A DNA stretch of 64,000 bases from Myxococcales bacterium. GTDB lineage: Bacteria; Myxococcota; Myxococcia; Myxococcales; JAKAPL01. The stretch covers positions 1-64,000 of the forward strand of contig JAJXUD010000008.1 of NCBI GenBank assembly GCA_021783235.1, given 5' to 3'. The translations under genes were made by a program, and so were the position numbers. The notes beneath the pieces were generated by a model that was not told the origin of the DNA, searched no databases, and worked only from the letters and a program-made list of their open reading frames with translations. This document shows, one piece after another, positions 8,646 to 14,825 of the stretch; within the stretch, counting starts at the first letter, position 1, and each line of letters begins with the position of its first letter.

Positions 8646-9071
8646 GTGCTCAAGATCTGCCCTCGCTGCCACCGGACGTTCTCCGGCGGCCGCCTCTGCC
8701 TCGATTGCGAGGGGGTCGCGCTCCTCGACGTCGCCGATCGGCGGAGCCAGCCGCACCTGCGGCAGGCGGAGCTGCAGCACACGATCAACACCTACTACGG
8801 CGCCCGAAGCGCGATGCTGCTGCTCTTTGCGAGCATCCTCCTCGGGGGAATCGGCTCGCTGCTCCTCGCCCGGCACGGCGTGGTGGAGCCGGGGAGAGAG
8901 GCCTGGTCGTGGTTTCTGGCCGCCGGCCTCGCCCTGGTCGGCACCCCGGTCGCCGGCCTTCTCGGCGGGGTCTGGCTCGTGCGTCGCCTCGGCGTCTGCC
9001 GCGGCTCCCCGCCCACCCTGGACGATCTCCGCGCCTCGCTGCGCGCGCGGAAGACGGACTCCCGGGCCTAA
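8646..9071 (+). CDS. Small zinc-ribbon membrane protein of unknown function
   Basis: A 141-residue protein from a GTG start. It opens with a zinc-ribbon-like knuckle, CPRCHRTFSGGRLCLDC, containing two CxxC pairs. Two hydrophobic helices follow (about residues 55-75 and 90-110), and the tail is short and basic. I do not recognise a named family. The layout, a cytoplasmic zinc ribbon plus two membrane helices, is common in small bacterial envelope or regulatory proteins. The gene converges on the Fe-S carrier gene and the two ends overlap by 4 bp. Confidence 0.7.
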   Translation: MLKICPRCHRTFSGGRLCLDCEGVALLDVADRRSQPHLRQAELQHTINTYYGARSAMLLLFASILLGGIGSLLLARHGVVEPGREAWSWFLAAGLALVGTPVAGLLGGVWLVRRLGVCRGSPPTLDDLRASLRARKTDSRA

Positions 9072-9373
9072 CGAAAGCTGGCGCCGCAGCGGCACGTTCG
9101 GCGCGCGTTCGGGTTCGAGAAGCGCAGCCCGTCTCGGTAGTCGAGGGTGGCGCCCTCGAGCAGCGGCCTCGCGCGCCGGTCCACGAAGAGCCGCAGCCCA
9201 GCGCTCTCGCCCTCGTCGTCCTCGGGGCCCGGGCCCGGCGCAGGCTGGAGGTCGTAGTAGAGCCCTTCGCAGCCGCCGCCCACGAGCTGCACCCGCAGTC
9301 CCCAGCCGAGGGCACCCTCCTCCTGGAACAGCGAGAGGAGCGCCTCCGCGGCCGCCTTCGTGAGCGAGATCAC
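9068..9373 (-). CDS. A-type iron-sulfur carrier protein (IscA/ErpA/HesB family)
   Basis: A 101-residue protein of the usual length. The three conserved cysteines are present: C35 in VGGGCEG, and C94 and C96 in TCRCGASF at the C-terminus. These ligate the iron or cluster that A-type carriers pass to apo-proteins. The GTG start at 9373 has an AGGAG Shine-Dalgarno 7 bases upstream. No other Fe-S assembly gene is adjacent, so the type (ErpA, IscA or SufA) cannot be assigned. The mature C-terminus ends right after the last motif, as expected. Confidence 0.9.
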   Translation of the reverse strand: MISLTKAAAEALLSLFQEEGALGWGLRVQLVGGGCEGLYYDLQPAPGPGPEDDEGESAGLRLFVDRRARPLLEGATLDYRDGLRFSNPNARRTCRCGASFR

Positions 9374-9434: not shown

Positions 9435-12400
9435 TCACTGGTTGTGCCAGTGCAGCGAGGAGAGCTGGGAGATCTGGGCCGAGTAGTTCGGCCAGCTCGT
9501 CCCCGGGAACTCCCAGAGCGAGCTGAAGGCGCCCGCCGCCGCGAAGAAGGCGTTCAGGTCCGCCGTGCTCGGGTAGCCCGTGTCGTTCGACTGGATGGGC
9601 CACTGCGGCGCGTGCAGGCCGGCCTGGGAGATCATCTGGTCCGCCTGCTGCAGCCCGTAGCTCCACGACACCCCGCGGTCCGCCCAGTAGATCTGCGGGA
9701 AGAAGCCGCTGCTGCAGTAACGGTCGAAGGTGGAGAACGGGAAGCCGCCGTGGTAGCCGACCCAGCCGAACGAGGTGTAGCCGACGAAGCTGCTGGGCGC
9801 GCCGGCCCGGACGCCCTGGCAGAGCTGCTGCGCCTGCGAGGCGTAGCTTCCCTGCTCGAACTCGATCTCCACGTCGAAGACGACGCCGGACGTCCCGGCG
9901 ACCTTCGCCGCGTCGATCGACGCCTGGATGGCGCCCGACGAGACTCCCTGCGGGGTCACGTACGGCCAGGCGAAGACCTTCATCCCGCGGCTCGTGAACT
10001 CGGAGACGATCGAGGCGTTGTAGCGCGAGCTCCAGAAGCTGCCGTCCTGCCCGCTCTTGATGAGCACGAAGCCGACGCCGTCCTGCTGCGCCGTCTGCGC
10101 GACCTCGGCGGGGGTCTTGCCCGTGTAGTCGAAGTACCAGATCCAGAGCCCCTTGCCCCCGGGGATGCCTCCGGTGCCGCCGCTCGAGCCCCCGCTGCTG
10201 CCGGAGCCGCCCGACGTCCCGCCGCTGCTGCCGCCGCTGGAACCGCCGGTTCCGGCGCACTGGTCGGGGACGCCCGTCGGCATCTTCTGGCAGCCGGCGC
10301 TGCACGTCTCGACCGCCGTCAGGCTGCCGCCGCGGCATTCGTAGAGCGTGTTCGGATTCCCGGAGATTCCGTCGCCGCCGCAGTAGAGGCCGTCGCCGTT
10401 CGGGCAGGTCGAGGTCGTCGGCCGGCAGCGATCGGGCATGTTCGCCGGCATCGACTCGCAGCCGCCCGCGCAGACCTGGTCGACCGTCAGCGTGCCGCCG
10501 TGGCAGTCGTAGAGCGTGTTCGTCGCTCCGCCGACGCCGTCGCCGCCGCAGTAGAGGCCGTTGCCGTCGGGGCAGGTCGCCCGGCAGCGGTCGGCCGAGC
10601 CCGCCGGCATCCGCTCGCAGCCCGACCCGCAGCTCTTCACCTCGCGGAGCGTGCCGCCCTTGCACTCGTAGAGGACGCTCGGGTTGCCGCCGACGCCGTC
10701 GCCGCCGCAGTAGAGGCCGTCGCCGTTCGGGCAGGGCTTCGGGGCGGGGGCGGGCCGGCAGCGATCGGGCACGCCGTTCGGCATCCGCTCGCAGCCGTCG
10801 CGGCAGGCTTCGACCTGGGTCAGCTCGCCGCCCGCGCACTTGTAGAGGCTGTTCGCGTTGCCCGAGACGCCGTTGCCGCCGCAGTAGAGGCCGTCGCCGC
10901 CCGGGCAGCTCGTGGGACGGCAGCGGTCGGGGAGGTTCGCCGGCATCCGCTCGCAGCCGTTCGCGCAGGCGCGCAGCTCGCGCAGGGTGCCGTTCGTGCA
11001 GAGGTAGAGGGTGTTCTGATCGCCGGCCACCCCGTTGCCGCCGCAGTAGGCGCCGTTGCCGTCAGGGCAGGCGCGGGGCGCGGGCGCGGGGCGGCAGCGA
11101 TCGGGGGAGCCGCTCGGCATCCGCTCGCAGCCGTTCCCACAGGACTGGACGAGGCTCAGCCGCCCGCCCGTGCAGCGGTAGAGGTCGTTCGTGTTGCCCG
11201 AGACGCCGTTGCCGCCGCAGTAGAGGCCGTCGCCGTTCGGGCACGACCCGCCGCCGCTGGAGCCACCACCCGAGTCGCCGCTGCCCCCTCGGATGTAGGC
11301 CATGTAGACGTCCCAGTTCCAGTTTGGACCCGGGTCCCAGTGGCGCTCGCCCGAGGGCACCCAGGCGCACTCCTTCACGCCGGTGTCGTCCGTGATGTCG
11401 TAAAGCTCGCTGTGGCCGATGATGTGGTTGCGGTCGACCGGGATGCCGTACTTGTGCACGAGGTAGCGGGCGAGGGCCGCCGAGGAGCGGTACATGACGT
11501 CCGTGTACCAGCCCTTTTGGCTCATGTAGCCCTCGTGCTCGATGCCGACCGAGTGCTGGTTCATCCACCAGCAGCCGGCGTGCCAGGCGATGTCCTTCTC
11601 CTGCACCATCTGCGTGATCTGGCCGTCCGAGGAGCGGATGTTGTAGTGGGCGGAGACCTGCGAGGCCGGGTTCGCGAACCAGGAGATCGCGCTCGAGTAG
11701 CTGCCCTCCATGTCGTGGACGATGATGTAGTGGATGTAGTCGCTGCCCGGTCGCCAGCTCACCGTGTAGTTCGAGGGGCTCGCCGAGACCCAGCGGGCGC
11801 CGCCGTAGTCCGGGGTCGCGTAGGCCTGATCCTCGGCCACGAGGTCGTTCGGGGGCAGGAGGATCGACTGGGCAGGGATCGAGAGGCCCGAGCCGTCCGG
11901 GTCGGTCGCGCCGCCCATCAGGATCTCGAAGACCCCTTGCGCGAAGCGGCGGCCCGCGGCGGCATCCTCGTCGCCGCCCCCGTAACGCGAGACCGCGTCG
12001 AACCAAGAGGCGAGCTGCTGGGAGCCCTGGTCGCCCGGGTGCGGGGTCCCGCTCGTCTCCTGGTAGAGCTGCTGGAGCACCGCCGCGCCGCCCTGGACGT
12101 TCGAGTCGGGGTCCTGCTTCAGCGTCGCCTCGTCGATGCCGGTGAGCAGCTGCGCGCGCTGCAGGGTCGGCATCGGCCCGCCGAGGTCGCGCAGATGCAT
12201 CAGGCCGTAGCCGTGGTCCAGCGACATGACCCCGGCCATCTGGTGCCAGTGGGTCTCCTGGTAGGAGATCGCCTTCAGGATCTCGGCCGGGACCTGGTAG
12301 CGCTGCGAGGCGTTCTCGAAGCTCTGCTCGAGCGGATCCTGGGACGAGAGGGTCGGGAGGCCGCCGGGCTGAGCGCCCTGGGAACAGGAGATCCCGAGGA

Positions 12401-12443
12401 GGGAGAGGCCGATGCCGGCGGCGGCGAGGGTGCGAGAGACCAT
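9435..12443 (-). CDS. Multidomain secreted peptidoglycan hydrolase: transglycosylase-like, amidase_2, six C6 repeats, GH-like C-terminal domain
   Basis: A 1002-residue exported protein. The signal sequence ends in LLGISC (Cys20, a slightly off lipobox). Residues 45-100 resemble a lytic transglycosylase core (ISYQETHWH with E63, then YGLMHL). Residues 230-385 form an N-acetylmuramoyl-L-alanine amidase_2 domain whose likely zinc ligands are H243 (VHDMEG), H344 (IIGHSEL) and D370 (HWDPG). Residues 401-729 hold six tandem Cys-rich repeats. A Ser/Gly linker leads to a C-terminal domain (about 760-1002) with a WIWYFDYTG start and VFDVEIE, which looks like a GH25-type TIM barrel. ATG 12443 is chosen because an AGAGGTG Shine-Dalgarno precedes it; an in-frame upstream ATG at 12485 has none. 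Likely roles are wall turnover or lysis of other bacteria. Confidence 0.85.
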   Translation of the reverse strand: MVSRTLAAAGIGLSLLGISCSQGAQPGGLPTLSSQDPLEQSFENASQRYQVPAEILKAISYQETHWHQMAGVMSLDHGYGLMHLRDLGGPMPTLQRAQLLTGIDEATLKQDPDSNVQGGAAVLQQLYQETSGTPHPGDQGSQQLASWFDAVSRYGGGDEDAAAGRRFAQGVFEILMGGATDPDGSGLSIPAQSILLPPNDLVAEDQAYATPDYGGARWVSASPSNYTVSWRPGSDYIHYIIVHDMEGSYSSAISWFANPASQVSAHYNIRSSDGQITQMVQEKDIAWHAGCWWMNQHSVGIEHEGYMSQKGWYTDVMYRSSAALARYLVHKYGIPVDRNHIIGHSELYDITDDTGVKECAWVPSGERHWDPGPNWNWDVYMAYIRGGSGDSGGGSSGGGSCPNGDGLYCGGNGVSGNTNDLYRCTGGRLSLVQSCGNGCERMPSGSPDRCRPAPAPRACPDGNGAYCGGNGVAGDQNTLYLCTNGTLRELRACANGCERMPANLPDRCRPTSCPGGDGLYCGGNGVSGNANSLYKCAGGELTQVEACRDGCERMPNGVPDRCRPAPAPKPCPNGDGLYCGGDGVGGNPSVLYECKGGTLREVKSCGSGCERMPAGSADRCRATCPDGNGLYCGGDGVGGATNTLYDCHGGTLTVDQVCAGGCESMPANMPDRCRPTTSTCPNGDGLYCGGDGISGNPNTLYECRGGSLTAVETCSAGCQKMPTGVPDQCAGTGGSSGGSSGGTSGGSGSSGGSSGGTGGIPGGKGLWIWYFDYTGKTPAEVAQTAQQDGVGFVLIKSGQDGSFWSSRYNASIVSEFTSRGMKVFAWPYVTPQGVSSGAIQASIDAAKVAGTSGVVFDVEIEFEQGSYASQAQQLCQGVRAGAPSSFVGYTSFGWVGYHGGFPFSTFDRYCSSGFFPQIYWADRGVSWSYGLQQADQMISQAGLHAPQWPIQSNDTGYPSTADLNAFFAAAGAFSSLWEFPGTSWPNYSAQISQLSSLHWHNQ
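10257..11243 (-). repeat. Six tandem Cys-rich repeats, about 55 residues each, within the amidase gene
   Basis: Each unit has six cysteines with spacing C-x7-C-x14-C-x10-C-x3-C-x10-C. Consensus pieces are CPNGDGLYCGG, LYxCxGGxL and GCERMPxxxPDRC. The spacing is near-constant across all six, which suggests a small disulfide-bonded module, perhaps for binding cell-wall or surface glycan. Confidence 0.9.
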
Positions 12444-12545: not shown

Positions 12546-12586
12546 AGGCCCCCGGGGAGCGCACGGACGCTCCACTTCGGGGGCCT
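12546..12586 (-). terminator. Extended hairpin downstream of hppA
   Basis: AGGCCCCCG (12546-12554) pairs with CGGGGGCCT (12578-12586), and an inner GGAGCG/CGCTCC stem continues the helix. It lies between hppA and the amidase gene, both leftward. No T-tract follows. Confidence 0.5.
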
Positions 12587-12638: not shown

Positions 12639-14825
12639 TTACGAGACGGCGCTCACGAAGAGCGGCGCGAGCACGAGCGTCACCGTCGCGAGCAGCTTGA
12701 TGAGCACGTGGAGCGAGGGGCCCGCCGTGTCCTTGAACGGGTCGCCCACCGTGTCGCCCACCACCGCCGCCTTGTGCGGATCGCTCCGCTTGCCGCCGTA
12801 GACGCCGGTCTCGATGTACTTCTTCGCGTTGTCCCAGGCGCCGCCCGCGTTGTTGAGGAACGTCGCCATCAGGATGCCGACGATCGTGCCGACCATCAGG
12901 AAGGCGGCGACCACCTCCGCCCCCATGTGGAAGGTCCAGCGGAAGATGATGCCGGTCGCGATGGGCATCCCGACGGCAACCACCCCGGGGAGGACCATCA
13001 TCTTGAGCGAGCCGATGGTCACGATGTCGACGCAGCGGCCGTAGTCGGGCTTCGAGGTCCCCGCGAGGATGCCGGGGTTCTCCTTGAACTGTCGCCGCAC
13101 CTCGTTGATGACGTAGTAGGCCGCCTTGCCCACCGCGCGGATGGCGAGCGACGAGAAGAGGAAGACCAGCATGCCGCCGAGCAGCGCGCCCACGAAGACC
13201 GACGGCTTCGCGAGGTCGACCGAGTGGAGCGGGAAGCCGTAGTTGCGGACCTCGTCCAGGTAGGCCGAGAAGAGGAGGAACGCCGCGAGCGCCGCCGAGC
13301 CGATGGCGTAGCCCTTGGTCAGCGCCTTCGTCGTGTTGCCCACCGCGTCGAGCCGGTCCGTCTTCTTGCGGATCTCCTCGGGCTGCTGGCTCATCTCGAC
13401 GATGCCGCCGGCGTTGTCCGTGATCGGCCCGAAGGTGTCCATCGCGAGGATGTAGGCCGCCGTGCCGAGCATGCCCATGGTCGCGACGGCGATGCCGAAG
13501 AGGCCGGGGTTGGCCTCGGACGGAAGCCCCGTCGCCTCCCCGAGCCCGAAGGCGACGAGGATCGAGAGGCCGATGACGAGGACCGGGAGCACCGTGCTCT
13601 CGAGCCCCACCGAGACGCCCGTGATGACGTTGGTCGCCGGGCCGGTCTGCGAGGCCTCCGCGATCTCGCGCACCGGCCGGTACTTGTACTCGGTGTAGTA
13701 CTGCGTGATGTAGACGAACGCGATGCTCGCGATGACGCCGACGATCCCGCAGGCGAAGTAGTTCCACCAGGCGTTCGGGTAGGCGGGGTTCGAGAGCAAG
13801 AGCTTCGAGGCGACGCCGAAGCCCACCGTCGCGAGCAGGGCGCTCACGTAGTAGCCGCGGTTCAGGGCCGCCATCGGGTCCGCGTCCTCGCGGGTCTTCA
13901 CGACGAAGACCCCGACGATCGAGGCGAGCAGGCCGAAGGCGCGCGCCACGAGCGGGAAGAGGATGACGAGCGGCGAGTAGTGGCCGTAGGTGACGAGCGC
14001 GACGCCGAGGATCATGGCGCCGATGTTCTCGCCGGCGGTCGACTCGAAGAGATCGGCGCCGCGGCCCGCGCAGTCGCCGACGTTGTCGCCCACGAGGTCC
14101 GCGATCACCGCCGGGTTGCGCGGGTCGTCCTCGGGGATGCCCGCCTCGACCTTGCCGACGAGATCCGCGCCGACGTCGGCCGCCTTCGTGTAGATGCCGC
14201 CGCCGAGCTGCGCGAAGAGCGCGACGAACGAGGCGCCGAAGCCGTAGCCCACGATCATGAACGGGATCTGCGTCTCGCTCACGTTGAAGAAGTAGAGGAG
14301 GACCGCGTAGAGGCCGCCGACCCCGAGCAGGCTCATCGCCACGACGAAGATGCCGGAGACCGCGCCGCCGCGCAGCGCGATCCGCAGGGCGTCGTTCAGC
14401 GAGCTGCGCGCCGCGGATGCCGTCCGGATGTTCGTCCGGATGGAGACCCACATGCCGATGTAGCCCGCGATGCCCGAGCAGAGCGCGCCGAGCAGGAAGG
14501 CGACCACCGTGGCGATGGCGAGCCCCATCTGCGTGAGCCGCTGGTGCTGCTCCTCGAGGTTCAGCTGCCGCACGAAGGCGTAGAGCGCGAAGATGACGCC
14601 GCCGAAGACGAGCGACAGCCAGCCGATCGTCTTGTACTGGCGGCTCATGAAGGCCTCGGCGCCCTCGCGGATGGCGTCGGAGATGGCGCGCATCGCCTCC
14701 GTCCCCGTGTCCTTCGCCAGCACCATCTTTGCGATCACTCCCGCGACGACGAGCGAAAGGAGACTCGTACCGAGGACGATCGCCATCCAGACGCCTGCGC
14801 TCAACGCTTGCTGTGACTCGGGCAC
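12639..14825 (-). CDS. hppA: Membrane-bound proton-translocating pyrophosphatase, K+-independent type
   Basis: A 728-residue inner-membrane protein with about 16 hydrophobic helices. It couples pyrophosphate hydrolysis to H+ export. The catalytic loop is clear: GGGIYTKAADVGADLVGKVE followed by DNVGDCAGRGADLFES. In the diagnostic segment DAVGNTTKALTKGYAIGSA the position after GNTT is Lys, which in this family marks enzymes that do not need K+ (Ala marks the K+-dependent ones). The GTG start at 14825 has an AGGAGGAGG Shine-Dalgarno. A promoter-like pair lies about 90 bp upstream and two hairpins follow the stop, so the gene looks monocistronic. Confidence 0.96.
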   Translation of the reverse strand: MPESQQALSAGVWMAIVLGTSLLSLVVAGVIAKMVLAKDTGTEAMRAISDAIREGAEAFMSRQYKTIGWLSLVFGGVIFALYAFVRQLNLEEQHQRLTQMGLAIATVVAFLLGALCSGIAGYIGMWVSIRTNIRTASAARSSLNDALRIALRGGAVSGIFVVAMSLLGVGGLYAVLLYFFNVSETQIPFMIVGYGFGASFVALFAQLGGGIYTKAADVGADLVGKVEAGIPEDDPRNPAVIADLVGDNVGDCAGRGADLFESTAGENIGAMILGVALVTYGHYSPLVILFPLVARAFGLLASIVGVFVVKTREDADPMAALNRGYYVSALLATVGFGVASKLLLSNPAYPNAWWNYFACGIVGVIASIAFVYITQYYTEYKYRPVREIAEASQTGPATNVITGVSVGLESTVLPVLVIGLSILVAFGLGEATGLPSEANPGLFGIAVATMGMLGTAAYILAMDTFGPITDNAGGIVEMSQQPEEIRKKTDRLDAVGNTTKALTKGYAIGSAALAAFLLFSAYLDEVRNYGFPLHSVDLAKPSVFVGALLGGMLVFLFSSLAIRAVGKAAYYVINEVRRQFKENPGILAGTSKPDYGRCVDIVTIGSLKMMVLPGVVAVGMPIATGIIFRWTFHMGAEVVAAFLMVGTIVGILMATFLNNAGGAWDNAKKYIETGVYGGKRSDPHKAAVVGDTVGDPFKDTAGPSLHVLIKLLATVTLVLAPLFVSAVS

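Follow-up and report, generated by a model that had tools for sequence, protein, structure and literature searches.

What would a bacterium do with a single exported protein in which an SLT/lysozyme-like domain, a zinc amidase and a predicted TIM barrel are gathered around six regularly spaced cysteine modules, and what would these modules be for? Such a protein is encoded on the minus strand at 9435..12443 of the window, by which we mean the whole stretch of 64,000 nucleotides analysed here, from a Myxococcales genome of 4.58 Mb in 133 contigs. The open reading frame runs uninterrupted from an ATG at 12443, with a ribosome-binding-like AGAGG stretch 7 nt 5' of it, to the stop at 9435, giving 1002 amino acids plus stop. 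Along the protein the order is SLT domain (residues 42-159), Amidase_2 (236-373), Cys modules (401-729), linker (730-758) and barrel (759-1002). At the N-terminus a predicted lipoprotein signal peptide (12384..12443, minus strand) ends in the lipobox LLGIS-C20, whose Cys follows a charged and a hydrophobic stretch, MVSRTLAAAGIGLSLLGISC; the same-family relative has LAAC. As judged from these letters, the protein is exported and probably lipid-anchored.

The gene appears to stand alone. On the same strand and 5' of it lies a frame (12639-14825) which, by motif, we take to be a proton-pumping pyrophosphatase, and downstream there is a small frame (9068-9373), presumably IscA/HesB-like by the same kind of reading. 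Between the pyrophosphatase frame and the hydrolase gene, a terminator-like hairpin (12548..12560, minus strand; one found against 0.7 expected by chance) would weakly suggest a separate transcript for the latter. Neither an immunity gene nor a secretion gene is seen beside it at the locus. The whole arrangement recurs in a single further genome of the family, where all flanking domains and the six-module array are kept at 69% overall identity (modules 66%, amidase 80%, barrel 74%); the array is therefore neither an assembly artefact nor a recent expansion. Recent tandem expansion of the modules was rejected in particular since five of the six match the relative's modules best in register. The full combination of SLT domain, amidase, six modules and barrel is new and has been seen only in the source genome and this relative.

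The enzymatic core is of a known kind. The SLT domain (11967..12320, minus strand; PF01464, 28.2 bits against a curated cut-off of 21.3, E 1.5e-6) carries SYQETHW and YGLMHL motifs, and the catalytic-Glu motif E-S/T-x-W/F is present as E63-T64-H65-W66. Of the 27 aligned sequences, 17 have E at position 63 and the other 10 have Q, D, A or L, and because of these replacements the domain may play a structural role in some family members; apparently it has decayed repeatedly in relatives, while the source protein has kept the Glu. The amidase domain (11325..11738, minus strand; PF01510, 112.2 bits against a curated cut-off of 26, E 3e-32) is the best-supported working part. Its H243, H344 and D370 align with the zinc ligands of AmpD and its E302 with the catalytic Glu, all four being invariant wherever the relatives' sequences cover them (28-29 sequences), and it is predicted to be a zinc N-acetylmuramoyl-L-alanine amidase hydrolysing the MurNAc-L-Ala bond. 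A search with the Pfam model finds Amidase_2 at this single place in the whole source genome. Of the catalytic residues named in a preliminary description, H243, H344 and D370 are thus present, fall on the AmpD ligands and do not vary; E63 is likewise found in the SLT motif, but as a family trait it holds only for the 17 sequences mentioned.

The SLT-amidase pair itself is an old, known architecture. Among the Myxococcaceae relatives that were examined it is common, with other C-termini; it is also present, at 33-41% identity, in Streptomyces and Nonomuraea records, those that are annotated being named simply N-acetylmuramoyl-L-alanine amidase. The Myxococcales and Streptomyces proteins with SLT-like and Amidase_2 domains (e.g. 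WP_331737813.1) have the same two domains in the same order, with 33-41% identity over the whole core and YQE(S/T)xW and GYG(L/V)MHL motifs in common with the source protein. They differ in their C-terminal regions: among SLT-amidase proteins, only the source protein and its same-family relative have the six Cys modules and the barrel.

What sets the protein apart begins with the modules. Six matches to C-x7-C-x14-C-x10-C-x3-C-x10-C were found, at residues 401-450 (11094..11243), 459-508 (10920..11069), 513-562 (10758..10907), 571-620 (10584..10733), 624-673 (10425..10574) and 680-729 (10257..10406), all on the minus strand and borne out by the module alignment, with short, Pro-rich linkers between them. 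When the segment is shuffled, the mean is 0.0003 spacing matches and at most one appears in any of 20,000 shuffles; therefore composition alone does not explain the six-fold spacing. No model in Pfam or NCBIfam covers the module, and a literature search for it found nothing.

Searching with the module alignment located the module in 21 of 195 Myxococcota genomes, in some other bacterial MAGs, and in 2 of the 240 genomes from the group to which a WS6 (Patescibacteria) genome belongs, with only a weak match in one of the two; none was found in viral contigs, phages or plasmids. Matches of the modules to T4_gp9_10_N and to the phrog_2005 tail family were rejected as composition artefacts, as no stretch passes alone. 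In the small genomes of WS6 (L058) and another Patescibacteria member (L059), seven and two modules, respectively, are joined to M23 peptidases. Since nearly all others of the group are without the module, horizontal gain in Patescibacteria is suggested.

We grouped the carriers by hand into 28 distinct module-bearing proteins, with 1 to 15 modules each, many of which start with a lipoprotein-like signal. Enzyme domains recognised by Pfam at E<=0.01 occur on half of them (14/28), namely Amidase_2 on 6, M23 on 3, CHAP on 3 and GH25 on 2; some further carriers look like CHAP, M23 or lysozyme proteins to the eye alone and were left out of this count, so that 14 stand without a recognised enzyme domain. 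Among the 28, Pfam showed no enzyme domain that lacks a link to the wall. It is mainly the module's repeated occurrence alongside four unrelated folds of wall enzymes which argues that the modules are probably wall-binding. The source genome has ten module matches in three genes; another of these carriers has a C-terminus resembling that of the 15-module protein and CHAP-like by eye (L101, L054).

Several other features were observed around module-bearing loci. Beside the module-bearing CHAP-like gene on contig 72 of the source genome, L101 3457-4593 (+) encodes about 20 near-identical AESISVVAESIS heptad-like repeats. An exported protein with two modules, found on contig 111 of this genome (L047 1573-3549, plus strand) and again in L041, combines a conserved N-terminal domain (WIGYNP..RACE..T..FFNC..G.TDFN) with a C-terminal tail that looks like a sorting signal. 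In L044, L082, L083 and L128 a conserved exported domain (ENLGGGY..YPF..GVTxGCSxGCYCRINSLHRTxWC) is in each case preceded by one module. There is also another type of Cys module that looks related to the first (C-x-C ... TYCGFRVCGG.N..YEC...W......C), at the Myxococcaceae loci L077 277-394, L079, L080, L081 and L045, which adjoins lysozyme-like and M23 enzymes, has no Pfam match, and compares with the source module at a profile probability of 78.

Regarding the fold of the module, module 6 was modelled from a 47-row alignment, and the model (pLDDT 92) shows strands 6-9, 20-25 and 28-34 and, in addition, a short pair at 40/49. A Foldseek search against 350,542 PDB chains placed the antifungal protein PAFC, the CBM14 of human chitotriosidase, bubble protein and Der p 23, an allergen which we take to be CBM14-like, at the top in this order, matches below rank four being noise. 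E-values are weak, at 0.3-1.2, which is no surprise with only 50 residues; the probability is 0.92 for PAFC (E 0.3) and 0.75 for bubble protein (E 0.9). PAFC has strands at 26-28, 34-39, 42-48, 55-57 and 60-63 and disulfides 3-30, 18-38, 28-54 and 49-64 (PMC7865535). With module C9 set on PAFC C28 and C24 on C38, the second and third strands of the module coincide exactly with those of PAFC, its strands 6-9, 20-25 and 28-34 lying on 26-28, 34-39 and 42-48. All six module cysteines map to the PAFC disulfides 18-38, 28-54 and 49-64, and the only PAFC cysteines left unmatched, C3 and C30, are bonded to each other. On this model the module pairing would be C1-C24, C9-C39 and C35-C50.

Profile comparison between the module and PAFC/bubble protein gave a probability of 76 and a score of 24.0, against 9.0 +/- 2.1 for Cys-fixed shuffles, none of which (0/250) reached 24.0, a test somewhat overstated because the Bubble/PAFC family had been chosen as best match beforehand. 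Among Pfam families, Bubble also matches single modules best (E 0.003-0.006), which is not significant alone with 47 modules tried; the model PF09227 reaches 17.3 bits where its cut-off is 23, and matches only 2 of the 47 at all. A whole-genome search with the Bubble HMM retrieved no module in the source genome and returned weak scattered noise, as it did in control genomes, and neither PAFC nor bubble protein was retrieved from the PDB sequences by the module profile. In its predicted strands the module would resemble the bubble protein/PAFC family (PF09227; PDB 1uoy, 6trm), but it is bacterial, tandem and embedded in enzymes, and has six cysteines rather than the eight cysteines and four disulfides of Bubble, both partners of 3-30 being absent. 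CBM14/peritrophin-A (PDB 6so0, 4zce) is likewise a small disulfide-bonded beta module, at Foldseek ranks 2 and 4, but with a probability of only 0.33-0.35, and its HMM matches none of the 47 modules at E<=1. A bubble-protein-like fold is therefore probable for the module, which would make it a new, uncatalogued family with that fold.

Beyond the modules, a Gly/Ser linker (10170..10256, minus strand) leads to the C-terminal domain (9438..10169, minus strand), which is modelled as a TIM barrel (pLDDT 86, pTM 0.86). All of six homologues, of 24 to 74% identity to it, keep its residues D857, E859, Q917 and Y919, and it is rare, occurring in 5 of 195 Myxococcota genomes. A relative of 27% identity is joined to PG_binding_1 and CHAP in a plasmid protein of the cyanobacterium Calothrix. 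Viral contigs, phages and PHROGs gave no usable match to the barrel, although the closest fold (TM 0.82, 28% identity) is that of one unnamed phage protein. Among solved structures, the nearest are diverse glycosidases including hevamine-type GH18, with TM about 0.6 and none >0.65. Like GH25 lysozymes, the barrel has a DxE where strand 4 ends (D857 and E859 in the fourth predicted strand), and the GH25 HMM matches it weakly between domain residues 25 and 137. However, it falls below every cut-off, GH25 (PF01183) scoring 15 bits against 27, and profile comparison, at a probability of 29%, did not confirm the GH25 lead. A candidate strand-1 Asp, D772, is present in the source protein and is not shared by all six homologues. 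The GH18 motif DxxDxDxE is not present either, SGVVFDVE lacking the first two Asp. On sequence and model the barrel fits no named glycosidase family, and it is probably an unnamed wall glycosidase family, a second glycosidase with a DxE motif in the protein.

The preliminary description had listed a transglycosylase-like domain, an amidase, six repeats and a glycosidase-like barrel, and this list holds, as does the exact repeat spacing; of the barrel claim, the TIM fold and the DxE motif stand, while assignment to a glycosidase family does not. It was also right to leave the module unnamed, and its guess of wall or glycan binding is still the best one, given the partners Amidase_2, M23, CHAP and GH25. 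Its idea of a lytic weapon against other bacteria may or may not hold, the lipoprotein signal and the lack of an adjacent immunity or secretion gene being compatible with house-keeping as well.

Taken together, we consider it fairly probable that the protein is a peptidoglycan hydrolase which is exported, probably held by a lipid anchor, and directed by glycan-binding modules in tandem. The zinc amidase would cut the MurNAc-L-Ala bond and free the stem peptide; the SLT domain, with its catalytic Glu kept, would probably cut the glycan strand, and so perhaps would the barrel. Each module, of about 50 residues with three disulfides and a bubble-protein-like beta fold, would contribute to a tandem wall-binding array, in which multivalent sugar binding holds the enzyme on its substrate. 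Wall binding by the modules, activity of the barrel and predatory use are what we infer here. Cutting strand and stem together would suit complete wall dissolution, as in predation, but the substrate may also be the cell's own wall. The same domains may indeed be read, at distinctly lower probability, as an ordinary envelope-maintenance amidase working on the cell's own wall, to which the sole Amidase_2 place in the genome, the commonness of the core in the Myxococcaceae relatives examined and in Streptomyces, and the lack of any immunity gene seen nearby would be congenial, as would the lipoprotein signal, which suits a house-keeping role as well. However, so heavy a binding array and a second barrel suggest an insoluble foreign wall as the substrate, and Myxococcus xanthus, which needs peptidoglycan-lysing enzymes against Gram-positive prey, raises two N-acetylmuramoyl-L-alanine amidases with some prey (PMC10849154).

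The modules might also do something other than grip a wall. Up to 15 copies follow one another at regular intervals, with short Pro-rich linkers and lipoprotein signals, and this would agree with rigid protease-resistant spacers or protein-protein contacts which keep the enzymes off the membrane anchor. Nevertheless, single modules on M23, GH25, CHAP and amidase proteins would be odd for a spacer, the position of the module differs between proteins, from N-terminal in L058 to C-terminal in L056, and the fold neighbours include the chitin-binding CBM14, so that we hold this unlikely. That the best fold matches are the antifungal PAFC and bubble protein raises the further thought that the modules are themselves antimicrobial, e.g. 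antifungal, mini-proteins, with the wall enzymes as partners in killing. The fungal proteins, however, work on their own, as chains of 64 residues with four disulfides (PMC7865535), whereas the modules form part of wall enzymes and, in Patescibacteria, accompany M23 peptidases, which leaves such a function very improbable.

On the preferred reading, wall targeting by the modules, the likeness to fungal antifungal proteins offers a concrete, testable idea of what those proteins might bind. A bolder version, which we think rather unlikely as it stands, is that the module represents a new bacterial family of mobile domains, binding peptidoglycan or GlcNAc and sharing common ancestry with the fungal bubble-protein/PAFC antifungals; if this is true, the latter would also act by gripping wall glycan. 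The module, if wall-binding, would add a new targeting domain to those known for lytic enzymes. Such a module, found on several unrelated kinds of wall-cutting enzyme and yet without a Pfam or NCBIfam model, would make many unannotated exported proteins of the Myxococcota recognisable as wall enzymes.
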